From assembly GCA_017441265.1 (NCBI GenBank), contig JAFRYE010000052.1, positions 1 to 47,472 of the forward strand: a DNA stretch of 47,472 nt, given 5' to 3'. The notes below the pieces were generated by a model. The model did not search any database. It saw only the letters and a list, made by a program, of their open reading frames with translations, and was not told where the DNA came from. The position numbers and the translations under genes were made by a program. Shown one piece after another: positions 6,703 through 46,313 of the stretch; within the stretch, counting starts at the first letter, position 1; each line of letters opens with the position of its first letter. The stretch comes from Lachnospiraceae bacterium (GTDB taxonomy: Bacteria; Bacillota; Clostridia; Lachnospirales; Lachnospiraceae).

Positions 6703-9700
6703 ATGAACGGTAGGTTGAAACGAAGCTTTCCGTTGTTGGTAGCCGCTCTGGCCATGACACTTTTGCTGTCACTGGGAATGGCTTTTGCGAGCGAAACCGT
6801 GATATTGGAAGGGGATAACGGCTATATCACGGAAGCTATTGAGAATGCTCCGGCAGGAGCAAAGTTGTCGGTAGAAGTGGAATATGCCGATGATTCTTTG
6901 AATTGCTATGCAGGATGGGGCATCGGCGGCATCTGTACCGACGGATCATGGATGCCGTCTATCTGTGCAACCTTGGCTGAGGATCCGACCCTCGGAGATC
7001 GACTGACATTTCTCTTTGATGTCGATGAGATCATAGCGGACGGCGATGGCGATTATCAGGTGAACATTTACAACGGATTTCAGGTTGTTAAGGTTACACT
7101 GATTACCGGTGCTAAGGATTATACGATCTCATATGTGATGAACGGCGGTACGAACAATCCGTTCAATCCGACAAAGTATAACAAGTACAGTGATGCCATT
7201 TATCTGAAGAATCCTTCGAAGGAAGGCTGTATCTTCAGCGGCTGGTATACGGATGCCGCCCTGACAAAGCGCTCGAGCGGTATCGCGAGCGGATCCACCG
7301 GAAACCGCACATTCTATGCGAAGTTTACGGACGGAACCGGCACAACGAGAAAACTTACCTTTGATGCAGACGGTGGAACCGGCACGGTTCCTTCCGCGAT
7401 CACGGCAGCCGGTGGTGCTTCCGTGACGATCCCTTCGGCTTCTTTGAAGAAGGAAGGTTATTATTTCATGGGCTGGTCTCTGGCTCGGGGTCAGAGTACC
7501 GCGCAGTACAAGAGCAAGAGTACGATCGTATTGAGTACCAATACCACATTGTATGCGGTATGGAAGCAGATTGTATATCACCAGTTGAGTTTTGAAATGA
7601 ACGGCGGTGACGGTGAGTTTACGTATTTCTTTGAGCCGAAAGGCACGAATGTAACGATCCCGAAGATCACGGTTACCAAAAGCGGATACTATTTCTTGGG
7701 CTGGGGCGAAGATCCGGAAGGACCGGCTCTTTACAAGACGGGTGATGTTATTCGCCTGAATAGCGACACTACACTTTACGCTATATGGAAATGCAAGACG
7801 ACGGAGTATCGTCTGGTATACGATTCCAACGGCGGATACGGTGTCCTTAACAGTGATTCCCCGATTTGTTGTCCGAAGGGTACGGAGATCACAATCCCGA
7901 GAGCGAATCTTTACCGGGATGATTACTATTTCCTCGGCTGGGCAACGTCCGCGACGGCAACGGCTGCCGAATACAAGTCCGGCAACAAGATCGTCATGAA
8001 CAAGAATCTGACGCTGTATGCCGTATGGAAGTATGCGCTTCCGATGCCGAAACTTGTTTTCAACGTAAACGGCGGAACCGGCACGGCTCCGAAATCATTG
8101 TCTGCTGTTCCCGGAAATTCGGTTGTTGTTCCGAAGGCGTCCCTCAGCCGCGAGAATTACTATTTCCTCGGTTGGTCGACCTCCGCTACGGCGCAGACCG
8201 CGATGTACAAGAGCGGAGACGAAGTGGTTCTCTATGAAGATGGCACTCTGTATGCGGTATGGAAATGCAAATACAAAGAGTGCACGGTAGTATTTGATGC
8301 CAACGGCGGTTCCGGCAAAGTTCCCGCCGATCTGAAGCTGTTCGGCGGCATTGCCGGTACGATCCCGAAGGCGTCTATCACCCGCACCGGATTCTATTTC
8401 TTGGGGTGGTCGACGGATAAGGCCGCTACGGCTGCACAGTATACGTCCGGCAAGTCGATCACGGTTACTTCCAACAGAGTTTTGTACGCAGTATGGAAGG
8501 CTTCGGGCCCGATTCTTTCGTTCGATCTGAACGAAGGCGTCGGAACGGTACCGGCTTCCATGAGCGGAAAGAGCGGCACGGCTCTCACGATCCCGAAGGC
8601 ATCCGTAAGCCGCAAGGGTTTCTACTTCCTCGGCTGGTCCACGGACAAGAATGCTACGTCGGCTCAGTATACGAGCAATAAGACTATCACGATCACGAAA
8701 AATACGACCCTGTATGCGGTTTGGAAGAAAAAACCGGCGAAGACCTGGAATCTCGGTGGACAGACGATCACGATCGGTGACTGGTGGTCCGGAGAGGGAT
8801 TCGATTACTGGGATACTTACTTCAGTTCTTCGGATGAGCAGGAAGAGTATAAGCAGTATCAGCTTTCCATGATGGAAGAGCATAACTATACGCTGACTCG
8901 TAAGTCGGTATACGGATGGGGAGATGAGGCGGAAGTCGCAATGCTCTCGATCGTAGCAAACGAGCCTGTAGCCGATATCATGCTTTTCGATTATCGCTTT
9001 ATCGCGGAATTCTTTGCACAGGAAGAACCGTTGTTCTGTGATGTATCCCAGTGTGAAGCTTTCGACTTCAGCGATGAAAAGTGGAACAAGGCTGTCATCG
9101 ATATGATGACGGTCAACGGAAAGATTTACGGCTTTGCGACGGGATGTGAGCCCCGTACCGGCGTTTTCTTCAACAAGGATCTGTATGCGCAGTTCCGCGG
9201 TGCCGATAAGGTGGATGAGCTGTATGATCTGCAGGCATCCGGCAACTGGACCTGGGCGAAGTTTGAAGAGATCGCACAGAGCCTTACCAGAGATACCGAC
9301 AACGACGGTGAGATCGATGTGTACGGATTTGCGACGCAGCAGAGCGCATTGTTCGAGATGGCTGTTATCAGCAACGGTCATGATTTTGTCACGAAGGACA
9401 GTCTCGGACGTCTGGTAAGTCAGGTTACGTCGCAGGATGTCATTGACGATTGCAACTGGGCATATTCGCTCTACACGAACAATTACACCCGCAGATCCAC
9501 CGAAGGCGAGGAATGGGATTATTTCAACGGAATGTTCGTTTCCGGCGAAGCGGCCATGATTGTTTACGATGAGTACAAAGCAGCCGATTTCATGGATATG
9601 TGTGATTTCGATTATGGCTTCGTTTGCTTCCCTCGGGGACCGAAGGCGACCAAGTATTATTCGATCGTTCGGGAGAATGTATATGTGATCCCGAATTGTC

Positions 9701-10047
9701 CGGCTACGAAAGATCGTGTCGAGGAGATTGCATACGCCTTTAACGTATATACCGACATGGCTCCGAATGCATCGACTGATGCGGATGCTTGGAAGGCAGA
9801 TTATGAGTATTGCTTCTCCGATACCCGTGCTGTCAATGAGACGATCGATCTCATGATCCACGGAAGTACTCAGGTGATGCCGGCTGCATGTCTTGTGCCC
9901 GGTCTGATGGACAACACCAATGGTTTGCTTCAGTGCGGTATCCTGTATTCGCTTGACGATCCGGACAGAACGCCTGCGGAAGTGCTTTCTTCTCAGGCAG
10001 ATGGAATCGCCGAATGCATCGCGGATTTCAATGCGAAGATGAAGTAA
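6703..10047 (+). CDS. Secreted InlB-repeat protein with C-terminal ABC solute-binding domain
   Basis: An 1114-residue protein with a signal peptide (cleavage expected near AFA-S, about residue 29), a 110-residue unassigned N-terminal region, seven Listeria-Bacteroides (Flg_new/InlB_B-type) repeats at about 141-209, 216-288, 292-363, 369-443, 449-521, 527-599 and 603-675, and a family-1-like extracellular solute-binding domain at about 687-1114. The repeats share an NGG turn, a Y/F-F-LGW core and end in LYAVWK. The binding domain carries a calcium-loop-like DTDNDGEID segment seen in many sugar-binding proteins. There is no lipobox and no LPxTG signal, so how it stays on the cell is unclear. 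No permease or ATPase gene for sugar uptake is adjacent. Start ATG 6703 follows AAGGGG at 6690-6695. Confidence 0.85.
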   Translation: MNGRLKRSFPLLVAALAMTLLLSLGMAFASETVILEGDNGYITEAIENAPAGAKLSVEVEYADDSLNCYAGWGIGGICTDGSWMPSICATLAEDPTLGDRLTFLFDVDEIIADGDGDYQVNIYNGFQVVKVTLITGAKDYTISYVMNGGTNNPFNPTKYNKYSDAIYLKNPSKEGCIFSGWYTDAALTKRSSGIASGSTGNRTFYAKFTDGTGTTRKLTFDADGGTGTVPSAITAAGGASVTIPSASLKKEGYYFMGWSLARGQSTAQYKSKSTIVLSTNTTLYAVWKQIVYHQLSFEMNGGDGEFTYFFEPKGTNVTIPKITVTKSGYYFLGWGEDPEGPALYKTGDVIRLNSDTTLYAIWKCKTTEYRLVYDSNGGYGVLNSDSPICCPKGTEITIPRANLYRDDYYFLGWATSATATAAEYKSGNKIVMNKNLTLYAVWKYALPMPKLVFNVNGGTGTAPKSLSAVPGNSVVVPKASLSRENYYFLGWSTSATAQTAMYKSGDEVVLYEDGTLYAVWKCKYKECTVVFDANGGSGKVPADLKLFGGIAGTIPKASITRTGFYFLGWSTDKAATAAQYTSGKSITVTSNRVLYAVWKASGPILSFDLNEGVGTVPASMSGKSGTALTIPKASVSRKGFYFLGWSTDKNATSAQYTSNKTITITKNTTLYAVWKKKPAKTWNLGGQTITIGDWWSGEGFDYWDTYFSSSDEQEEYKQYQLSMMEEHNYTLTRKSVYGWGDEAEVAMLSIVANEPVADIMLFDYRFIAEFFAQEEPLFCDVSQCEAFDFSDEKWNKAVIDMMTVNGKIYGFATGCEPRTGVFFNKDLYAQFRGADKVDELYDLQASGNWTWAKFEEIAQSLTRDTDNDGEIDVYGFATQQSALFEMAVISNGHDFVTKDSLGRLVSQVTSQDVIDDCNWAYSLYTNNYTRRSTEGEEWDYFNGMFVSGEAAMIVYDEYKAADFMDMCDFDYGFVCFPRGPKATKYYSIVRENVYVIPNCPATKDRVEEIAYAFNVYTDMAPNASTDADAWKADYEYCFSDTRAVNETIDLMIHGSTQVMPAACLVPGLMDNTNGLLQCGILYSLDDPDRTPAEVLSSQADGIAECIADFNAKMK
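7123..8727 (+). repeat. Seven tandem InlB-type repeats (protein-coding)
   Basis: Coding repeat region of the secreted protein, seven units of about 70-75 codons each with short linkers. Units 2 to 7 are clearly alike (NGG near the start, FLGW in the middle, LYAVWK or LYAIWK at the end). Unit 1 is the most diverged, reading FSGWY and FYAKFT. The units differ enough at DNA level that they are not a recent amplification. Confidence 0.85.
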
Positions 10048-10056
10048 AAAATTCGC

Positions 10057-10085
10057 TTGACAATCAAAAAAACTTGTTGTAGTAT
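10057..10085 (+). promoter_or_regulatory. Sigma-A promoter of the T-box leader
   Basis: TTGACA (10057-10062) and TAGTAT (10080-10085) with a 17-base spacer. The -35 box lies only nine bases after the stop of the preceding gene, and transcription is expected to start near 10092. Confidence 0.85.
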
Positions 10086-10091
10086 TACTGC

Positions 10092-10380
10092 CATCGGGGT
10101 TTTGCCTCGACGGAAAATGCTTAGAACAGGAATAGTACGTGTGAATCCGGTTTCAGAAAACTGTCGGTGGATGCGAGACAGTCGACGATGCACAGGGAAC
10201 TCGCCTGGGAGCTGCAGATTGAAGGCTTTGCTGTGTAGATCGTGCCGGAATCCCACCGTTACCACGGGGAAGAACATCGACGCAAGTCCGTGTTCGCTGA
10301 GAGCATGAGCAATCATGAAATAGAGTGGTACCACGCATATTTTGCGCCTCTATCGCACACCTGCGATAGAGGCGTTTTTT
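10092..10380 (+). promoter_or_regulatory. T-box leader, specifier read as CUC (leucine)
   Basis: A T-box riboswitch measures the charging of a cognate tRNA and lets transcription continue when that tRNA is uncharged. The canonical T-box TGGTACCACG is at 10326-10335 inside AGAGTGGTACCACG. Stem I carries the AGTA of the specifier loop (about 10134) opposite GAA-CTC-G (10197-10203), with CAGG and CCTG closing the lower stem. CUC at 10200-10202 would be a leucine codon. The base after TGG is T, which pairs with a discriminator A; tRNA-Leu has A73, whereas tRNA-Ser normally has G73, so the one-base-shifted reading UCG is less likely. ATAGAG (10320-10325) can pair with CTCTAT (10348-10353) to form the antiterminator. 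The regulated gene begins at 10468. Confidence 0.9.
10345..10380 (+). terminator. Intrinsic terminator of the T-box leader
   Basis: A perfect 13-base-pair hairpin (10345-10357 with 10362-10374, loop CACC) followed by TTTTTT. Its 5' arm overlaps the antiterminator arm, the mutually exclusive fold expected for a T-box. Confidence 0.95.
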
Positions 10381-10467
10381 GTTTGCCGGGACAGTGGAAA
10401 CGTTGACGGAAACGCCAGCTCAAGCCGGAATGCGATGAATCAGTAATCACACGAAAGGAAACAACAC

Positions 10468-12993
10468 ATGAAGATCAGTTTTTCAACTCTGGGATGTCCG
10501 GATTACTCCTGGACCGATATCTACACGATGGCGAAGGATTTGGGTTACCACGGCATTGAGATCCGCGGCCTCGGACACGATATACTGGCGACAAGAGCGA
10601 AGCCATTTTCCGAGGAACAGCTTCCGAAGACCGTTGAGAAGCTGCGTGAGATCGGGATCGAGGTGTCCTGCCTGTCTTCGGGCATCGCGCTCAAGTATCA
10701 GGCGAAACTGCCGAAGATCATCGAGGAACTGACGGCGTACGCAAAACTTGCCAATGCGCTCGGAACCGCGTATATCCGTGTGTTGGCAGACGAACATCCC
10801 GCGCCGGAGGGCGAGGTGGACGACGAGGCGATCATCGCAACGCTTCGCAAACTGGCACCGATCGCGGAAGAGTACAATGTAACGATGCTGGTGGAGACCA
10901 ACGGTGTGTATTCCGATACGGCACGTCTTAAAAAGATCCTGGACGAAGTCGGAAGCCGGAAAATAGCCGCTCTCTGGGACATCCATCACCCGTACCGCAA
11001 CTTCGGGGAGACGCCCGACCAGACGGTTGCGAATCTCGGGGAGTACATCAAGTATGTTCATGTGAAGGATTCGGTTTGCCGTGACGGTAAGATCTCGTAC
11101 CGTATGATGGGAGACGGCGACATGCCGCTCAAGGAGGCATTTGCCGCATTGCAGAGCATGCATTACACCGGCTATGTTTCGCTCGAGTGGGTGAAACGCT
11201 GGTCTGCGGAGCTTGCGGACGCATGGGTTGTATTCCCGCAGTTCGCAAACTATATGCGCCCTTACAAGACGAAGCATAAGCACGCGCTGCAGACCGACAA
11301 CCGCGGAACGGGCAATTACATCTGGCCGAAGGAGCGCCTGATCGACTACACGTTCCCGGATATCCTGGATCGCATCTGCGAGGCGTTCCCGACGCAGTAC
11401 GCGTTCCGCTACACGGAACTTGACTACACGAGAACGTATCCCGAGTTCCGCGACGATGTGGACAATTTTGCCAGAGCATTGATCGCCATGGATGTCAAGA
11501 AGGGCGACCATGTTGCGATCTGGGCGACCAATGTGCCCGCGTGGTACATTACGTTCTGGGCGACGACGAAGATCGGCGCCGTGCTTGTGACGGTCAATAC
11601 CGCCTACAAGATCCATGAGATCGAGTATCTGCTGCGCCAGTCCGATACGCACACGCTCGTTATGATCGACGGCTTCAAGGACTGCGATTACGTCGGTACG
11701 ATCAAAGAACTCTGTCCGGAGCTTGCAACCTGTGAGCCGGGCAAACTCGAGAGCGAGAGACTGCCGTATCTGAAAAATATCATTACCGTTGACAGCCGTC
11801 AGCCGGGTTGCTTTACCTGGGAAGATGCCGTCAAACTCGGAGAGACCGTGCCGCTTACGGAAGTGGAAAAGCGCCGCGCGGCCGTTGACAAGAACGATGT
11901 TTGCAACATGCAGTACACCTCGGGAACCACTGGCTTCCCGAAGGGTGTTATGCTCACGCATTACAATGTTGTCAACAACGGTAAAGCGATCGGCGACTGC
12001 ATGGATCTCTCTACCGCAGACCGCATGATGATCCAGGTTCCGATGTTCCATTGCTTCGGCATGGTGCTGGCCATGACGGCGTCCGTGACCCACGGCGTGA
12101 CCATGTCCCCGATTTCGGCCTTCTCTCCGAGAAAGAGTCTGGACTGCATCAACCGCGAAAAGATCACGTGTTTCCACGGCGTTCCGACGATGTTTATCGC
12201 GATGCTGGGACATGAGAACTTCCCGAAGACGGATTTTTCGCATATGAGAACCGGTATCATGGCAGGTTCGCCTTGCCCGATCAAGACGATGGAGGAAGTC
12301 ATCGAGAAGATGCACATGCCCGAGATCGTTATCACCTACGGCCAGACCGAAGCGTCTCCGGCTACGACGATGAGCAAGACCACCGACACCATCGAACAGC
12401 GTGTCAATACCGTAGGACCTTCGATCTTCGGCGTAGAGACCAAAATCGTGGATCCCGAGACCGGCGAGGAGCTTCCGGACGGCGTTCCGGGCGAGTTCTG
12501 TGCCCGCGGTTACAACATCATGAAGGGCTACTACAAGATGCCTGAGGCAACTGCCGCAGCCATTGATGAGGACGGATGGCTCCACTCCGGAGACCTTGCG
12601 CTCCGCCGCCCCGAAGACCACTATTACAAGATCACAGGCCGTATCAAGGATATGATCATCCGCGGCGGTGAGAATATCTATCCGAAGGAGATCGAGGACT
12701 TCATCTACACGTACGATAAGGTGAAGGATGTTCAGGTCATCGGCGTTCCGGATGCGGATTACGGTGAGGAGATCATGGCCTGCATTATTCTGCAGGACGG
12801 CGTGGAGTGCACCGAGGACGAGATCAAGGATTACGTTCGCACGCACATGGCAAAGCACAAAGTGCCGCGCTACGTGGATTTCGTTGCGGAGTTCCCGATG
12901 AATGCGGCCGGCAAGATCCTCAAGTACAAGATGCGCGAGGAAGCCGTTGAGCGCCACGGGCTTCACAAGGCAAATAAGATCGAGACGGCGTGA
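10468..12993 (+). CDS. Fusion of xylose-isomerase-like TIM barrel and acyl-CoA synthetase
   Basis: An 841-residue protein with two complete enzyme-like domains. Residues 1 to about 270 resemble the sugar phosphate isomerase/epimerase (AP endonuclease 2, IolE-like) TIM barrel, with candidate metal ligands in VETNG, WDIHHP, VHVKD and SLEW. Residues from about 295 to 835 form an AMP-dependent fatty-acid-type CoA ligase with YTSGTTGFPKG (from 483), YGQTE (624), HSGD, RGGENIYP (732-739) and a catalytic-type lysine in AAGKILK (816). The ligase half should activate a carboxylic acid through an acyl-AMP. The substrate and the role of the barrel are unknown. It is the only gene behind the T-box leader; AAAGGAA at 10454 precedes the start. 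The frame runs unbroken through the junction, so this is one protein, not two neighbouring genes. Confidence 0.9.
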   Translation: MKISFSTLGCPDYSWTDIYTMAKDLGYHGIEIRGLGHDILATRAKPFSEEQLPKTVEKLREIGIEVSCLSSGIALKYQAKLPKIIEELTAYAKLANALGTAYIRVLADEHPAPEGEVDDEAIIATLRKLAPIAEEYNVTMLVETNGVYSDTARLKKILDEVGSRKIAALWDIHHPYRNFGETPDQTVANLGEYIKYVHVKDSVCRDGKISYRMMGDGDMPLKEAFAALQSMHYTGYVSLEWVKRWSAELADAWVVFPQFANYMRPYKTKHKHALQTDNRGTGNYIWPKERLIDYTFPDILDRICEAFPTQYAFRYTELDYTRTYPEFRDDVDNFARALIAMDVKKGDHVAIWATNVPAWYITFWATTKIGAVLVTVNTAYKIHEIEYLLRQSDTHTLVMIDGFKDCDYVGTIKELCPELATCEPGKLESERLPYLKNIITVDSRQPGCFTWEDAVKLGETVPLTEVEKRRAAVDKNDVCNMQYTSGTTGFPKGVMLTHYNVVNNGKAIGDCMDLSTADRMMIQVPMFHCFGMVLAMTASVTHGVTMSPISAFSPRKSLDCINREKITCFHGVPTMFIAMLGHENFPKTDFSHMRTGIMAGSPCPIKTMEEVIEKMHMPEIVITYGQTEASPATTMSKTTDTIEQRVNTVGPSIFGVETKIVDPETGEELPDGVPGEFCARGYNIMKGYYKMPEATAAAIDEDGWLHSGDLALRRPEDHYYKITGRIKDMIIRGGENIYPKEIEDFIYTYDKVKDVQVIGVPDADYGEEIMACIILQDGVECTEDEIKDYVRTHMAKHKVPRYVDFVAEFPMNAAGKILKYKMREEAVERHGLHKANKIETA

Positions 12994-13103: not shown

Positions 13104-13176
13104 AGGGGTATAGTTCAGCTGGTAGAATAACGGTCTCCAAAACCGCAGGTCGTGGGTTCGAATCCTACTGCCCCTG
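13104..13176 (+). tRNA. tRNA-Trp (anticodon CCA)
   Basis: A 73-base cloverleaf. The acceptor arm AGGGGTA pairs with TGCCCCT and the discriminator is G, as expected for tRNA-Trp. The anticodon loop CTCCAAA places CCA at 13137-13139 and the T arm contains GGTTCGAATCC. The 3' CCA is not encoded. The outermost anticodon-stem pair is an A-C mismatch. Confidence 0.95.
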
Positions 13177-15419: not shown

Positions 15420-15630
15420 ATCTTCCTGGGGTGTGCGATACTTCCGTCATTTTTGAACCTACAAAACTTAAAAAGGGATTCCAATATTTGTATGCGGATG
15501 TCAGGCCTCCTTAGTCAGTGGAAGGCAGAAGTATACGTGAGGTCACCCACCTGGCTTTCGGCTGGGAGTCAAAAAGCGGAAACCGGCATCCCGGGAGTAT
15601 TAACAAGGAGCGCTGTCAACGGCGCTTTTT
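15420..15630 (+). ncRNA. ssrS: 6S-like RNA
   Basis: A roughly 210-base gene-free transcript with its own promoter and terminator that folds as one long interrupted hairpin. ATACTTCC (about 15450-15457) pairs with GGGAGTAT (about 15593-15600), TTTTTGA pairs with TCAAAAA, and TTCCT near the 5' end pairs with AGGAG near the 3' end. A large central open region separates the arms. That shape imitates an open promoter and is the hallmark of 6S RNA, which binds the sigma-A RNA polymerase holoenzyme. The segment around TTTTGAACCTACA also resembles clostridial 6S sequences as I remember them. I could not run a covariance model, so another structured RNA class remains possible. Confidence 0.62.
15609..15630 (+). 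terminator. Terminator of the 6S-like RNA
   Basis: AGCGCTG (15609-15615) pairs with CGGCGCT (15620-15626), one G-U pair, loop TCAA, followed by a T-rich run. Confidence 0.85.
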
Positions 15631-15775: not shown

Positions 15776-18700
15776 ATGGCACTGCAGTTTATCATTGGAA
15801 GTTCTGCCCGTCAGAATCGGGAATTGTTGATTTCCCGGATGATGGAGAGAAGTGAGAACGAGGACGGAGAGATGTTTTTCTTTGTTCCGGAACAGGCCAA
15901 CCTGGAGGCCGAGCGGTCGCTGACCGAACGGCGCAGGGGCGGGTGTGTGATGCGCATTGACATCGTCAGTTTCCGTCGCCTTTTGCATCGTCTGACGGAC
16001 GAACTGGGCAACCGTGTGCCGCCAATCCTCGACGATACGGGGAAGAGTCTGCTGCTCCGCCGCGTTTTGTCGGAGCACGCGAAGGAGCTGCCGCGCTTCG
16101 GCGGAAAAGCGAACAAACAGGGTTTTCTTGCGGAACTGAAATCCCTGCTGTCGGAGTTCGTGCGCTATGAAGTGACATCGGAGGCTTTGTCGGAAGTCTC
16201 GAAGAAGACAGAGGATACATTATTTTCCGACAAACTATCGGAATTGTCGGAAATCTATCAATGGTTCCGTGAGAAGTGCGGGGAGACGCATATCACGGAG
16301 GACGATATATACAATGCCATGTGCCCGCTTGTGAGGGAATCAAAGCGCCTGAAGGGCAGTGTCTTATACTTTGACGGGTATACCGGTTTTACTCCCACAC
16401 AGTACAATCTGATCGGGGAGTTGATCCGCATGTGCAAAGATATTGTGATCACGGTTACGATCGATCCGCAGGAATGCGATCCGGGACACCGGGCGGCGGA
16501 CTGCTTCCGCATGAGTCGGGAGACGACCGGCACGATGCGTAAGCTCGCCGAGGCGAGCGGAGTGCAGGTCTTGCCGGACATTGTTGCGCCCGGTGACGGC
16601 GACAACCGTGCCGCGGCTCTCACATATATCTCGGAGGCCTTGTTCCGGCGGGGATTCGGAGCATTTTCCGATGAGGCGCCGGACTCTGTCCGGCTGGTTT
16701 CGGCTGCCGACAGATCGTCGGAAGTCCGTGCGTTGACACGGGAGATCATGCGCCTTGTCCGCAAGGAGGGCGTTTCTTACCGTGAGATCGCGGTTGTGTG
16801 CGGGGATGCCGCGGGGTATGAGGAAAACCTCAACAGAGAGTTCGGCATTTCCGGAATACCGTTCTTTTTGGACCGCACGAGCGAGGTCTCGGACAACTGC
16901 CTCATCGACTATATCCGGTCGTTGCTGGAGATGCTTTATACCGATATGCGGACGGACGTGGTCATGCGTTGGCTGAAGAATCCGATCAACGGTTTCAATA
17001 CGGACGATCTGAACTATTTGGAGAATTATCTGCTTGCGCGCGGGATCCGCGGACTTTCGATGTGGACCCGTGGGTTTGCCGGCAACTATTACTGCAAGCG
17101 CGTCACGAAACACGACCGGTGTATCGCGCTTGCGTCGGAGATCACTTCGATGCTCCTTCCGCTTGCGGAGGTCATGAACGATCCGCAGACGGGAGTTGCG
17201 GCGAAGACAGAGGCTTTGTATGCCTTTTTGACTGCACGAAAGACGTATCAATGCATGCTCTCGATGTCCGAGAGCGTCGCTAAGGAGAATGTCCCGTGGA
17301 GGCTTCGCCGCAGTGCGGAGTACCACGCGATCTACAAAGCGGTTATTGAACTGCTCTCCCGCGTTCACACGCTGCTGCCGGAACCGGCGATCTCGCTTCG
17401 GGATTACATGGGAATCCTGGAGGCGGGCTTTGCGGAGATGCAGCTCGGCGTGATCCCGCCGGAGCGTGACTGTGTGATGATCGGCGACTGCAAGAGATCG
17501 CGGTTCGCCAGTATCCGGTATATGTTTTTTCTGGGTGTCAATGAGGGGAAAGTGCCGGGTTCCGGACACGGAAGCGAATTGTTGAACTGCCGGGAGAGAG
17601 AACTTCTTAAGAATGATTATCGGATTGCTCTGGCGGACACGGAGAAGGAGGCGATCGACAGCGAGGAATTCAACATCCTCCTTGTACTGCAGAAGCCGAC
17701 GGAGAGACTGATCGTCTCCTGGGCCTGCACCGACGATGAAGGAAAGGCGGTGGAGAAGTCGTATGTCGTTCGCAGGATTCAGCGGTTGTTCCCGAAATTG
17801 ACGGTGACGGATGCCGAAGCCGGAAAGGCAACCTTCTTCGACCGGATCGCGGCGGACGGCGGGATCGGAGAACTGTTGAAAGAATACACGGCCGCTGCTC
17901 ACGGAACATCGAAAGATGCGACGCAGAGAGCCGCACTGGGAACTCTGTATGACTGGTATGTGAAAGACGGAGAGGGACGCGGACTTCACGTTACCGAAAC
18001 ACAGCTTAAAGACGCGGAACGTGGCTTGTTCCGCCAGCAGGAACTGTCTTCGGAGATTGCTCAGGAGCTGTTCCCGAGAGATCGGGAGTTTTCCGTGACG
18101 AGACTGGAGGAGTTCGCCGCCTGCCCGTTCCGGCATTTTGCGAAATACGGACTTACGGCGGAAGAGAGGGAGACGTATGCTCCGACACAGTTGGAGAGCG
18201 GTTCCGCGTTTCATGCGATCCTGGAGTACGCCGGCGCGAAGATTGCCGAGCAGGGTGCGCCTCCGGATGAGGAGACATTGCTAACCTTACTGCGGGAAGG
18301 GGCGAAGTCTGTCGAGGAGAATCCGGACTTCGAATGCTTTTTTGCGAACTACCGTAGCAGACATCTCTATCGCTCGATCGTCCGGAATCTGGAATTTACG
18401 GCACCGTATATGGCGAAGCAGCTGCAGGACGGGAACTATGAGCTGTTACACACGGAGGAGAAGTTCTCGGAGAACTTCGGGGAGTTCCGGTTCGGCGGCA
18501 AGATTGACCGTGTCGACATTTGCCGTGACGGAGACCGGAGCCTGATCAAGATCGTCGATTACAAGACGTCCGGCAAGGAATTCAAGACAGCCTTGATCGA
18601 TGCCGGAATCGATATTCAGCTACCGTTGTATCTTCGCGTCGAAGAAAAACGGCTGCGCGCCGAGGGCGTTGAAGCCATACCTGCGGCTGCCCTGTATCTG

Positions 18701-42765: not shown

Positions 42766-43980
42766 TCAGGCGAGCTTTGCGGCAAGGCGCTCGCGGATCG
42801 CCGCGATGAAATCGGCGGAGTTGACGGCGCGGGAAGTGTAGCCTTCGCTGACGAGACCTGCGAGGTCTTTCGTCATAATGCCGTCGTTCAGAGTCTGCAA
42901 AACCGCAGCTTCCAGACAGTCGGCATAGCGGATCAGATCGGCAAGACCGTCTTTCTCGCCGCGCTTGCGGAATGCACCGGACCAGGCGAAGATGGTTGCC
43001 ACGGGGTTCGTGGAGGTCTCCTCACCCTTGAGGTAGCGGTAGTAGTGGCGGGTTACGGTGCCGTGAGCGGCCTCGTACTCGTAGTTTCCGTCGGGGCTTA
43101 CCAGAACGCTGGTCATCATTGCCAGCGAGCCGAATGCGGTGCTGACCATATCACTCATGACGTCGCCGTCGTAGTTCTTGCAGGCCCAGATGAAACCGCC
43201 CTCGGAGCGGATGACGCGGGCTACGGCATCGTCGATCAGAGTGTAGAAGTAGGTGATGCCTGCAGCCTGGAATTTCTCCTTGTACTCGGCATCGTAGATC
43301 TCCTGGAAAATGTCCTTAAAGCGGTGATCATACTTCTTGCTGATGGTGTCCTTCGAGGAGAACCAAAGATCCTGCTTGACCGAGAGTGCGTACTCAAAGC
43401 AGCTTCTGGCAAACGACTCAATGGAAGTGTCCTTGTTGTACATGCCCTGCAATACGCCGGGGCATTCGAAATCATAGATTGTCTCTCGCATTGTCGTGCC
43501 GTCTTCACCGGTGAATACGAGCTCTGCTTTGCCCTTGCCGGGGATGCGGAATTCGGTGTTCTTATAAACGTCGCCGTAGGCGTGACGGGCGATGGTGATC
43601 GGTTTCTTCCAGGTGCGCACGTTGGGCTTGATCGAGTCGATCATGATCGGCGCGCGGAAGACTGTTCCGTCGAGGATGGCGCGGATTGTGCCGTTCGGGC
43701 TCTTCCACATCTGGGAGAGGTTGTATTCGGTGACGCGGGCAGCGTTCGGCGTGATCGTCGCGCATTTTACGGCGACGCCGTACTTCTTGGCTGCGTAGCT
43801 CGCGTCAAGCGTGATCTGATCTTTCGTCTCTTCGCGCTTCGGAAGTCCGAGATCGTAGTACTCGGTCTTGAGGTCGACGAAGGGAAGGATCAACTCGTCT
43901 TTGATCATTTTCCAAAGGATTCGGGTCATTTCGTCGCCGTCCATCTCGACGAGCGGCGTGGTCATGGCAATCTTGTTCAT
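42766..43980 (-). CDS. icd: NADP-dependent isocitrate dehydrogenase
   Basis: Converts isocitrate to 2-oxoglutarate with reduction of NADP, the step that supplies glutamate synthesis. At 404 residues with the start VEMDGDEMTRI and segments such as SPNGTIRAILDG, NYDGDVMSD and AAHGTVTRH, it belongs to the homodimeric, eukaryote-like class rather than the E. coli-type class. GGAGG lies just upstream of the start on the - strand. It is the second gene of an operon, 21 bases behind the aconitase gene. Motifs are complete. Confidence 0.95.
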   Translation of the reverse strand: MNKIAMTTPLVEMDGDEMTRILWKMIKDELILPFVDLKTEYYDLGLPKREETKDQITLDASYAAKKYGVAVKCATITPNAARVTEYNLSQMWKSPNGTIRAILDGTVFRAPIMIDSIKPNVRTWKKPITIARHAYGDVYKNTEFRIPGKGKAELVFTGEDGTTMRETIYDFECPGVLQGMYNKDTSIESFARSCFEYALSVKQDLWFSSKDTISKKYDHRFKDIFQEIYDAEYKEKFQAAGITYFYTLIDDAVARVIRSEGGFIWACKNYDGDVMSDMVSTAFGSLAMMTSVLVSPDGNYEYEAAHGTVTRHYYRYLKGEETSTNPVATIFAWSGAFRKRGEKDGLADLIRYADCLEAAVLQTLNDGIMTKDLAGLVSEGYTSRAVNSADFIAAIRERLAAKLA

Positions 43981-44001
43981 GAGAACCTCCTTAATCGGCT
44001 G

Positions 44002-46260
44002 TCAGGCCTTTTTGTTCTGCTCTGCATAGTAGTTGATCAGGCATCCGTCAAGGATGATCGTCTTTTCCTCGTCGGTGAGACCGCGGATGATCAGCGTCAG
44101 ATCGGTGACGGAGCCGTCCTTGGCAACGGCTTTCGCAGCAAATTCCTCGTCGCCGCGGGCAATCTTGGCGCGCACGTCGGGAACGAAGATGTAATCGCCG
44201 TCCTCATACGGGAACTCGGCACCGTCGGGAAGCGTGAAGGGAAGGATGCCCCAGTTGATACAGTTGCTGCGGTAGCGCTTGGTCGCGTATTCATAGCAGA
44301 TGTTTGCATAGCCGCCGAGCACTTTCTGGCAGGAAGCTGCCTGCTCGCGGGCGGAACCGTCACCCGGACGGTTTGCGAATACACAGGAACCGTACTGCGT
44401 AGTCTTCAAAAGCGATGCTGCGTCGCCGAAGTTCGAGAGAACGGACACAAGCTCGGCAGGAGACTCGCCGTCGCGGCGCGCAAGGTCGAGAGCATGGATC
44501 TCTTTGCTGCGGCCGACATATTCCGGAACGCGGCGGGAGAGAGCAAAATCGGAAAGTCTCAGAGGGTTGCTTCGATACGAACTGGTCTCGCCTGAAGGGA
44601 TCAACTCGTCGGTCGTGGTCACCGGATCGCGGATGACAGCGGCAAGCTTAAGAAGAATATTGTCCGTGAGTGCTTCCATCTTCGGCCAGTCGGTGATGTT
44701 CGGTCCGAGGATGAGCTCCGCATTCGGGTCGGCTTTGCCGAAACCGTAGTAGATGCGATTGCGGTAAACCGTCTTGTCAAAATGATACTCGTGAGCGGGC
44801 ACATCGTACTCAATGTCGGTGGCTGCCGTGATCACGCCGCCGTTGGCTGCCGTAGCGGCAATGCTTCTCGCATCCATCAATGCTACGCCGCAGAGCTGAC
44901 CTTCCGCGGGCTTGCTGCCTTCGCGGTTCGGGAAGTTGCGGGTCGTGTGGCGGATCGAGAGACCGTCGTTGGCCGGAACGTCACCGGCACCGAAGCAGGG
45001 ACCGCAGAAGGACGGCTTGATGATCGCACCGGCCTTGAGGAGCGATGCGATTGCACCGATCTTCGTGAGTTCCAGACTTACCGGAACGCTGGTGGGATAC
45101 ACATTGAGCGAAAAATAACCGTTGCCGCAGTTCTTTTGGTCGAGAATTGCCGCAGCCTCGTCGATATTGTCGAACAGACCGCCGGAGCAGCCGGCGATGA
45201 CGCCCTGGTCGGCGTAAACCTTGCCGTCCTTGACTTTGCTGCGAAGATCATAGTGATGACCTTTGAACTTCGCCGCGGCCTCGGCCTCAACGTTTGCGAG
45301 GATCTCGTCGGCGTTGGCGACGAACTCGTGGATCGTGTAGGCGTTGGACGGATGGAACGGAAGAGCGATCATCGACTCTGCCTTGTCAAGATCGATGGTG
45401 ATGAAGCGATCGTAATATGCGCCGTCTCCCGGAACCAGACGCTTGTAGCATTCCGGACGCTCATGCGCAACATAGTGACCCTTCGTGATCTCGTCGGTCT
45501 CCCAGATCGAGGAGAGACAGGTGGTCTCGGTGGTCATGACGTCGATACCGTTGCGGAAATCGATCGGAAGATTGGCAAGACCGGGCCCCGTGAATTCCAG
45601 AACGCGGTTCTTAACGAAACCGTCGGCAAATGTGGCGCGCACGAGATCGAGAGCAATGTCGTGGGGGCCGATACCGCGCTTCGGCTTGCCGGTCACATAG
45701 ACAAGGACAACCTCGGGCATGTTGAGGTCCCAGGTGTTATTAAGAAGCTGTTTTACAAGTTCGGGACCGCCCTCGCCGACGCCCATGGTGCCGAGAGCAC
45801 CGTAGCGGGTGTGGGAATCGGAACCGAGGATCATGTTTCCGCAGGCGGACAGTTCCTCACGGGCATAGGAGTGAATGACGCTCTGGTTAGCCGGAACATA
45901 GATGCCTCCGAAGCGCTTTGCCGCGGAGAGACCGAATACATGGTCGTCTTCATTGATCGTGCCGCCGACGGCGCAGAGGCTGTTGTGGCAGTTGGTCATG
46001 GCATAAGGAAGCGGGAACTCGGTGAGCCCGCTGGCACGCGCCGTCTGGATGATGCCGACGTATGTGATGTCATGGGACACCATGGCGTCAAATTTTATCT
46101 TAAGCTTGGAGTCATCGCCCGAAGTGTTGTGGGAAGACAGGATCACGTAGGCGATGGTGCGGCGGCGTGCCTCATCCGGGGAAAGACTTCCCGTTGCGGA
46201 CGGGATGCCTCCGTTGAGATAGACCCCGCCCTCGTGCAGGGTTATGCAGGTGTTGCTCAT
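44002..46260 (-). CDS. Aconitate hydratase family protein
   Basis: A 752-residue hydratase of the aconitase superfamily, which uses a 4Fe-4S cluster to turn citrate into isocitrate. Cluster-type cysteines are visible in AGCSGG and in SFCGPCFGAGD, and GSDSHTRYGALG matches the substrate-binding region. The C-terminal swivel domain contains YRSNCINWG. The order aconitase-icd supports a role in making 2-oxoglutarate; citrate synthase is not in the window. I prefer ATG 46260, with AAAGGAGAG just upstream, over a longer reading from 46302 that would run over this site. It could be a hydratase of slightly different specificity, but the partner gene argues for aconitase. Confidence 0.9.
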   Translation of the reverse strand: MSNTCITLHEGGVYLNGGIPSATGSLSPDEARRRTIAYVILSSHNTSGDDSKLKIKFDAMVSHDITYVGIIQTARASGLTEFPLPYAMTNCHNSLCAVGGTINEDDHVFGLSAAKRFGGIYVPANQSVIHSYAREELSACGNMILGSDSHTRYGALGTMGVGEGGPELVKQLLNNTWDLNMPEVVLVYVTGKPKRGIGPHDIALDLVRATFADGFVKNRVLEFTGPGLANLPIDFRNGIDVMTTETTCLSSIWETDEITKGHYVAHERPECYKRLVPGDGAYYDRFITIDLDKAESMIALPFHPSNAYTIHEFVANADEILANVEAEAAAKFKGHHYDLRSKVKDGKVYADQGVIAGCSGGLFDNIDEAAAILDQKNCGNGYFSLNVYPTSVPVSLELTKIGAIASLLKAGAIIKPSFCGPCFGAGDVPANDGLSIRHTTRNFPNREGSKPAEGQLCGVALMDARSIAATAANGGVITAATDIEYDVPAHEYHFDKTVYRNRIYYGFGKADPNAELILGPNITDWPKMEALTDNILLKLAAVIRDPVTTTDELIPSGETSSYRSNPLRLSDFALSRRVPEYVGRSKEIHALDLARRDGESPAELVSVLSNFGDAASLLKTTQYGSCVFANRPGDGSAREQAASCQKVLGGYANICYEYATKRYRSNCINWGILPFTLPDGAEFPYEDGDYIFVPDVRAKIARGDEEFAAKAVAKDGSVTDLTLIIRGLTDEEKTIILDGCLINYYAEQNKKA

Positions 46261-46313
46261 AGAAACTCTCCTTTGAACATATTCGTAAAATGCAATGTGC
46301 ACATACGGAATTA

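Follow-up and report, generated by a model that had tools for sequence, protein, structure and literature searches.

A leucine-type T-box leader before a TIM-barrel/acyl-CoA ligase fusion gene points to probable tRNA-controlled salvage of a branched-chain acid

T-box leaders regulate transcription through the binding of an uncharged tRNA to the nascent leader, which lets an antiterminator win over a terminator. The closest described system for our purposes is the leader of the Bacillus subtilis ilv-leu operon, whose leucine triplet is reportedly CUC, to judge from the title of a 1996 paper by Marta. Here we describe a T-box leader and the single gene behind it, which encodes a TIM barrel fused to an acyl-coenzyme A (CoA) ligase, on a 47,472-nucleotide stretch of a Lachnospiraceae bacterium (assembly GCA_017441265.1, contig JAFRYE010000052.1). 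This whole stretch is called the window, and the genome it comes from (G000, 97.4% complete) the home genome. The two leaders are alike in RNA class, in the CUC triplet and in a proposed control of leucine supply. Unlike its B. subtilis counterpart, however, the window T-box governs one ligase fusion instead of an isopropylmalate pathway, and LeuB, LeuC, LeuD and IlvC are undetected in the home genome.

The chemistry that we propose for this gene has a long history. For rumen ruminococci, branched-chain volatile fatty acids act as growth factors, and physiological work since the 1960s has established that these acids can be carboxylated to amino acids. Titles by Allison and co-workers from 1962-1966 are said to report carboxylation of isovalerate to leucine in rumen bacteria. 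According to PMC7356843, rumen leucine is derived from isovalerate, isoleucine from 2-methylbutyrate and phenylalanine from phenylacetate, and isovalerate incorporation into leucine is described for ruminococci. Methanogens are described in PMC10658910 as making isoleucine and leucine by the same kind of acid carboxylation. The portions of the rumen-pathway literature that we covered name no gene for isovalerate activation or for its control. The role proposed here likewise leads from free isovalerate to leucine, and five loci from records titled Ruminococcus flavefaciens carry the fusion; one ortholog, L077, comes from R. flavefaciens 007c. We consider it likely that the gene encodes an isovaleryl-CoA synthetase that would be induced by leucine starvation and would feed reductive carboxylation to leucine.

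Two further groups of enzymes invite comparison. Macs of Methanosarcina acetivorans (structure 3ETC) and MbcS of Staphylococcus aureus are AMP-forming ligases like that of the window, theirs for branched short acids. The window ligase differs in carrying a TIM barrel, in having 8weu as its best solved relative and in being only 26% identical to the 3ETC-like ligase that stands behind an isoleucine-type T-box in the home genome. In the PaaK-IorAB clusters of anaerobes a CoA ligase lies beside a 2-oxoacid:ferredoxin oxidoreductase, an arrangement that recurs with an unfused version of our ligase in genome G053, whereas the window gene is fused to its barrel and alone behind its T-box. No T-box regulon with acyl-CoA ligases was found in the open-licence literature searched, a scope outside of which the main T-box reviews lie, and neither acyl-CoA nor AMP-binding, ferredoxin or phenylacetate occurs in the text of the comparative T-box paper PMC2494555. 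Within the open literature searched, a T-box on such a gene therefore seems undescribed, as the first-pass annotation of this DNA had surmised.

The elements of the locus, in window coordinates, are as follows.
10057-10062 and 10080-10085, + strand: sigma-70-type promoter-like pair TTGACA/TAGTAT with a 17-nucleotide spacer, a match to consensus only
10113..10354, + strand: T-box leader (RF00230, cmscan), from stem I to the antiterminator
10127..10137, + strand: 5′ strand of the lower stem I helix, CAGG (10127-10130), and AGTA of the specifier loop
10200..10202, + strand: specifier triplet CUC (leucine), in the context GAA-CTC-G-CCTG
10322..10335, + strand: T-box sequence, AGAGTGGTACCACG
10344-10375, + strand: intrinsic terminator hairpin, with a T-tract running to 10380
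10468..12993, + strand: TIM-barrel/acyl-CoA ligase fusion gene, 841 amino acids, proposed isovaleryl-CoA synthetase
10531..11202, + strand: xylose-isomerase-like TIM barrel (AP_endonuc_2), residues 22-245 (PF01261, 1.8e-30)
11371..12534, + strand: AMP-binding (adenylation) domain, residues 302-689 (PF00501, 1.1e-93)
12688..12915, + strand: AMP-binding_C domain, residues 741-816 (PF13193, 4e-17)

The match of the leader spans the whole RF00230 model (positions 1-219 of 219) and scores 107.4 bits (E 6.8e-23), the gathering score being 93. Its terminator hairpin has a folding energy of -25.5 kcal/mol (z -7.95), which none of 200 shuffled sequences equalled. Its 5′ arm shares sequence with the 3′ arm of the antiterminator (the final helix in the model match), such that the two structures are mutually exclusive. 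When the stem I and antiterminator stretches were folded on their own by minimum energy, the canonical T-box shapes did not emerge, and the structural claim is therefore drawn from comparison and from the covariance match. With promoter-like pair, T-box and terminator all located, the earlier description of a complete leader ahead of the gene is borne out. So is that of a single gene joining a sugar-isomerase-like barrel to an acyl-CoA synthetase, as is evident from the three domain matches. The start given for the element, 10092, lies near the expected start of transcription; counted with its promoter, the element begins at 10057.

The specifier was read in a register calibrated by eye on T-boxes of the same genome for which the amino acid is evident from the gene; gene identities and helix strands were likewise assigned by eye. 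In these calibrators a single nucleotide separates the triplet from the 3′ strand of the lower helix of stem I (valS, GUA; proS, CCC; metS, AUG; trpE and a trpB-like gene, UGG). The triplets of thrS (ACC) and ileS (AUC) agree in place, although the 5′ helix strand was located for neither. In the window, one nucleotide likewise separates CTC at 10200-10202 from CCTG, which forms the 3′ side of this helix and pairs with CAGG at 10127-10130. The same CTC-N-helix arrangement is shared by every one of the 33 distinct leaders that precede fusion orthologs, 19 from the same genus and 14 from outside it. A script found the paired 5′ helix strand in 28 of the 33 and no automatic partner in the other five. 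These 28 leaders use 11 different helix sequence combinations (e.g. CAGG/CCTG, GAGG/CCTC, AGGG/CCCT and GAAG/CTTC), which indicates that the helix fixing the register covaries. The proposed CUC specifier is thus retained on structural alignment, where a different triplet would have counted against it.

The T-box itself also bears on the amino acid. Its variable position, 10329, is T, the base expected to face the discriminator A73 of the tRNA, and U occupies this position in all orthologous leaders whose sequences were displayed. The discriminator is A73 in the tRNA-Leu genes of the home genome and G73 in its tRNA-Ser genes (3′ ends read by eye, 35 tRNA hits), so the assignment of this base to tRNA-Leu also holds. 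These data can be set against a serine reading, with UCG as specifier one base further along and a role for the gene in serine or sugar-acid metabolism. Such a shift could find encouragement in the base following CUC, which varies among orthologs (A, G, C) as a third codon base might. However, it would require UCC, UCA and UCG to alternate while the preceding C stays invariant; the single nucleotide between specifier and helix in the same-genome calibrators yields CUC, a register that holds throughout the 33 leaders; and U forms no standard Watson-Crick pair with the G73 of tRNA-Ser. The serine register is almost certainly wrong and was rejected on these grounds.

ARAGORN identifies a tRNA-Leu(AAG) and a tRNA-Pro(AGG) in the home genome and, among the tRNAs looked at (loci L206-L243), no tRNA-Leu(GAG). 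The CUC and CCC specifiers may accordingly be read there by tRNAs with A34 (inosine).

The spread of the pair was followed by a protein search over 61 genomes, 22 of them from the same genus including the home genome, and by a scan of named genomes from which the best 80 loci were kept, full-length matches being favoured. Within the genus the fusion occurs in the home genome and in 18 of 21 others, five of the genes being cut by contig ends, and a T-box with CTC precedes all 19. Together with the 14 distinct leaders outside the genus, this agrees with the expectation that homologous fusions share a T-box of the same specifier, and speaks against a T-box confined to one strain after loss of a leucine gene from between leader and fusion. 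Such a loss was rejected for the further reason that in all 19 same-genus loci the leader stands immediately ahead of the gene. By title, the best 80 named loci come mostly from rumen and gut Clostridia (Ruminococcus, Oscillospiraceae), with Candidatus Formimonas and Anaerobacterium also represented. A T-box core precedes the fusion in 18 of these 80, 14 of them outside the genus, and four of the loci have fewer than 400 nucleotides upstream; in L087 and L094 the T-box lies about 450 nucleotides before the fusion. An Rfam search at gathering level found no T-box in 23 core-free loci, and one genome of another family (G040) has the fusion without a T-box. In a quick tree of 79 fusion proteins (L094 and L099 were dropped by a filter), the 72 rows scored as T-box or none require at least 10 changes, with three rows lacking a state and four attenuator rows left out of the count.

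These four rows, L091, L096, L106 and L110, are T-box-free loci with a short reading frame that carries LRLTVL and clustered leucine codons no more than 260 nucleotides before the fusion, followed by a strong terminator directly before the gene. A convincing shared frame of this leucine-rich kind was obtained in only these four of the 59 T-box-free loci in which it was sought. It is probable, as far as sequence can tell, that a leucine peptide attenuator replaces the T-box there, which would tie the fusion gene to leucine once again.

One locus, L097, comes from a record titled Methanobrevibacter sp. MAG79, and its fusion gene groups with the bacterial ones. Its presence on a contig with an archaeal title is probably a binning error and possibly a transfer.

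Gene content provides the second line of evidence. LeuB, LeuC, LeuD and IlvC were searched for in the home genome and none was found. Among the 22 same-genus genomes, LeuB, LeuC and LeuD occur in four (G004, G006, G012, G018) and IlvC in five (the same four, as fragments in G012, and G016), and 10 of the 18 genomes free of LeuBCD are at least 95% complete. The fusion is missing only from G006, G012 and G018, all three LeuBCD-positive, and 18 of the 19 fusion-bearing genomes lack LeuBCD, G004 having both. As read from open reading frame starts and family matches in the G006, G016 and G004 operons, G006 holds leuA-ilvBNCD-leuCDB in one run, whereas G016 (80% complete), which has the fusion, keeps leuA-ilvBN, ilvD and IlvC, with no leuCDB seen. 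With neither IlvC nor LeuB, LeuC and LeuD to follow LeuA, the isovalerate route would be the home genome's own leucine supply. The home genome nevertheless keeps an intact 2-isopropylmalate synthase paralog (G000:C2:71676-73229, - strand), which shares 47-48% identity with the LeuA encoded in the operons of four relatives.

The window also contains an aconitase gene (42844-46302, - strand) with a weak LeuB-model match beside it, and these are the only aconitase-family and LeuB-model matches of the genome. The weak match is probably an isocitrate dehydrogenase.

The third line of evidence comes from other T-boxes of the home genome. It has 11, one of them so close to a contig end that its gene is out of view, and three of the 11 stand before acyl-CoA ligases: that of the leucine-type fusion and the following two.
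G000:C72:11836-19267, + strand (L006/L135): isoleucine-type T-box, AUC, with a helix-turn-helix-cupin/acyl-CoA ligase fusion
G000:C38:1834-2077, - strand (L001): phenylalanine-type T-box, UUC, before a PaaK-like ligase gene at 252-1574, - strand

The AUC leader is present in 18 of 18 close orthologs of the isoleucine-type ligase (73-100% identity) and in none of 10 distant ones (50% or less). This ligase has 3ETC as its best solved relative (624.5 bits), a Methanosarcina enzyme that prefers 2-methylbutyrate according to PMC10455477. Its best NCBIfam model is MbcS, at 437.6 bits and so below the cut-off of 850. In gene order it is followed by genes for an RHS-repeat protein, a ParA-like ATPase and a VorB-type oxidoreductase, the VorB subunit lying about 2.6 kb after the ligase (532.6 against a cut-off of 399) with a beta subunit next to it. 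In at least 13 of the 22 same-genus genomes, no more than 3 kb separates this ligase from a KOR-alpha match. The PaaK-like ligase scores 549.6 with TIGR02155, below the cut-off of 646.3, and a UUC leader precedes 15 of its 19 orthologs with 74-100% identity. Its leader helix is one pair longer, and a plain distance count would give UCC; UUC is favoured because of the helix rule and the U in the T-box.

Ligases of these families also gather around the fusion elsewhere. An MbcS-like ligase adjoins it in six of the best 80 named loci, before it in L047, L079, L083 and L086, after it in L118 and divergent from it in L102, where one intergenic region (L102:4266-4903) holds two divergent T-boxes, CUC towards the fusion and AUC towards the MbcS-like ligase. 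In L080 a PaaK gene follows the fusion with an ACT protein and a sodium-solute symporter, and in G053 the unfused ligase and an unfused barrel are accompanied by IorA, IorB, two PaaK genes, an ACT protein and a symporter.

From these observations we propose the following course of events. When charged tRNA-Leu falls, uncharged tRNA-Leu would bind the nascent leader, with CUC as specifier and U facing A73; the antiterminator would then beat the terminator, and the fusion gene would be transcribed. Its product is predicted to activate free isovalerate (3-methylbutyrate) to isovaleryl-CoA, a substrate suggested by the leucine T-box, the gene content and the sister ligases. A ferredoxin-linked 2-oxoacid oxidoreductase running in reverse could convert isovaleryl-CoA to 2-oxoisocaproate, which a transaminase would turn into leucine. 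The home genome has candidates in a VorB-type enzyme on C72 and an IorA on C44, neither of which adjoins the fusion. The sister T-boxes would do the same for isoleucine, with a 2-methylbutyrate ligase and the VorB-type oxidoreductase, and for phenylalanine, with a phenylacetate ligase. MbcS of S. aureus acts poorly on isovalerate according to PMC10026030, in keeping with the leucine branch having a ligase of its own. That the gene serves the amino acid named by its specifier is suggested because the leucine gene content points the same way. The idea in the first-pass annotation that a branched-chain acid may be used to rebuild leucine is, at the level of sequence, strongly supported by the missing LeuB, LeuC, LeuD and IlvC and by isoleucine- and phenylalanine-specific T-boxes on ligases.

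The same parts list can be read in another way, namely that the ligase makes a branched-chain acyl-CoA for some other use, such as priming branched-chain fatty acids, and that the T-box senses leucine as the normal precursor of isovaleryl-CoA. The breadth of the ligase family would accommodate this. However, it leaves unexplained why LeuB, LeuC, LeuD and IlvC are missing where this genus keeps the fusion, why a phenylalanine T-box should control a phenylacetate-type ligase and why VorB-type genes lie near the isoleucine-type ligase, and we judge it unlikely. The proposal that the phenylalanine-type ligase replaces prephenate dehydratase was rejected, since most genomes of the genus retain that enzyme.

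The remaining alternatives turn on the barrel. The fusion has the features of the ANL superfamily, with AMP-binding and C-terminal domains and, as read in the alignment, the adenylation motifs and a C-terminal lysine. Its barrel scores 106.9 bits with PF01261 against a cut-off of 31.1, and an AlphaFold2 model of it reaches a predicted local distance difference test score (pLDDT) of 89.5. Foldseek matches the barrel to AsbF (second), UlaE and allulose epimerases, and the nearest solved sequence is also AsbF, a probable dehydratase. None of the models for named sugar epimerases and isomerases comes near its cut-off, the best being fructoselysine 3-epimerase with 41.6 bits against 305, and the barrel was therefore rejected as a known sugar epimerase. 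Residues E31, E143, D171, H173, H174, K200, D201 and E240 are invariant in 28 sequences, and E143, D171 and E240 are presumably metal-site residues, by analogy with the family. In the HVKDS motif the histidine, which would be expected at the metal site too, is Gln in at least L055, L076 and L100. The barrel is fused to the ligase in all of the best 80 named loci, from a list that favours full-length matches.

A barrel of this kind could belong to a non-homologous replacement for isopropylmalate isomerase, one that dehydrates or isomerises the 2-isopropylmalate of the LeuA paralog before processing of a CoA ester. The persistence of a LeuA-like synthase without LeuB, LeuC and LeuD, the invariant putative metal site and the resemblance to the AsbF dehydratase fit this view. 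Yet with no LeuB and no IlvC, the last step and the precursor 2-oxoisovalerate would be unavailable by the usual enzymes; the split ligase and barrel of G053 lie beside IorAB and PaaK, with no LeuA in the open reading frame list of that contig; the isoleucine and phenylalanine parallels need no isomerase; and HVKDS has Gln in place of its histidine in at least the three loci named above. This makes an isomerase quite unlikely, and a simple substitute for LeuCD was rejected because LeuB and IlvC are missing too.

Alternatively, the barrel could be the main activity, acting on a sugar-like substrate whose product the ligase then uses, with only an indirect link to leucine. Its fold is that of ketose epimerases and dehydratases, and G053 retains a barrel beside the ligase though the two are split. 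However, the ligase homolog of G044 has no adjacent barrel in the open reading frame list, and both the missing leucine genes and the barrel-free sister ligases point to acid activation as the shared function, which leaves this reading very unlikely. An unexplained barrel and a retained 2-isopropylmalate synthase without a known next enzyme do leave room for different chemistry. There is accordingly a small chance that the leucine, isoleucine and phenylalanine T-boxes form a tRNA-sensing regulon for acid salvage in which the barrel makes or frees the acid for the ligase, for example from the 2-isopropylmalate of the LeuA paralog, as an undescribed route to leucine.

Several observations weigh against activation of free isovalerate as the role of the fusion. 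The proposed pathway gives the TIM barrel no job and does not need the retained 2-isopropylmalate synthase, and in the window the fusion has no oxidoreductase gene as a neighbour. The window ligase has no close characterised relative, and among NCBIfam models it scores best with a generic family of fatty acid CoA ligases, below the cut-off (697.5 against 832). Prephenate dehydratase is present in 19 of the 22 same-genus genomes. The association of fusion and LeuBCD in the genus (table 1/18/3/0) has a Fisher p of 0.0026, not corrected for relatedness, and this value overstates the case because the genomes are related and several are incomplete (79-86%). In other families, G040 and G044 have LeuB, LeuC, LeuD and IlvC in addition to the fusion or its unfused ligase; as G040 combines all four with the fusion, the exclusion is seen in this genus only. 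Among the 76 named loci that have 400 nucleotides or more upstream, 58 show no T-box core (the four attenuator loci included), and the link of T-box and fusion is therefore not universal. Finally, only seven of the 14 out-of-genus leaders score at or above the Rfam gathering threshold ahead of the fusion; the other seven are supported by motif and helix register.

If the isovalerate route is correct, the locus offers a candidate gene, with its control, for the isovalerate-activating step of a long-known rumen reaction, and suggests how most members of the genus manage without ilv-leu genes. It would also place salvage enzymes behind amino-acid-specific tRNA sensors. Since a T-box specifier names the amino acid served by an otherwise unassignable acyl-CoA ligase, it provides a way to find such genes.

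A 1114-amino-acid protein with Listeria-Bacteroides repeats is encoded directly upstream of the promoter (6703-10047, + strand), and a tRNA-Trp gene follows the fusion gene at 13104. Further along, a 6S RNA (RF00013, 76.4 bits) occupies 15420-15601 on the + strand, shortly before an addB-type gene at 15776.

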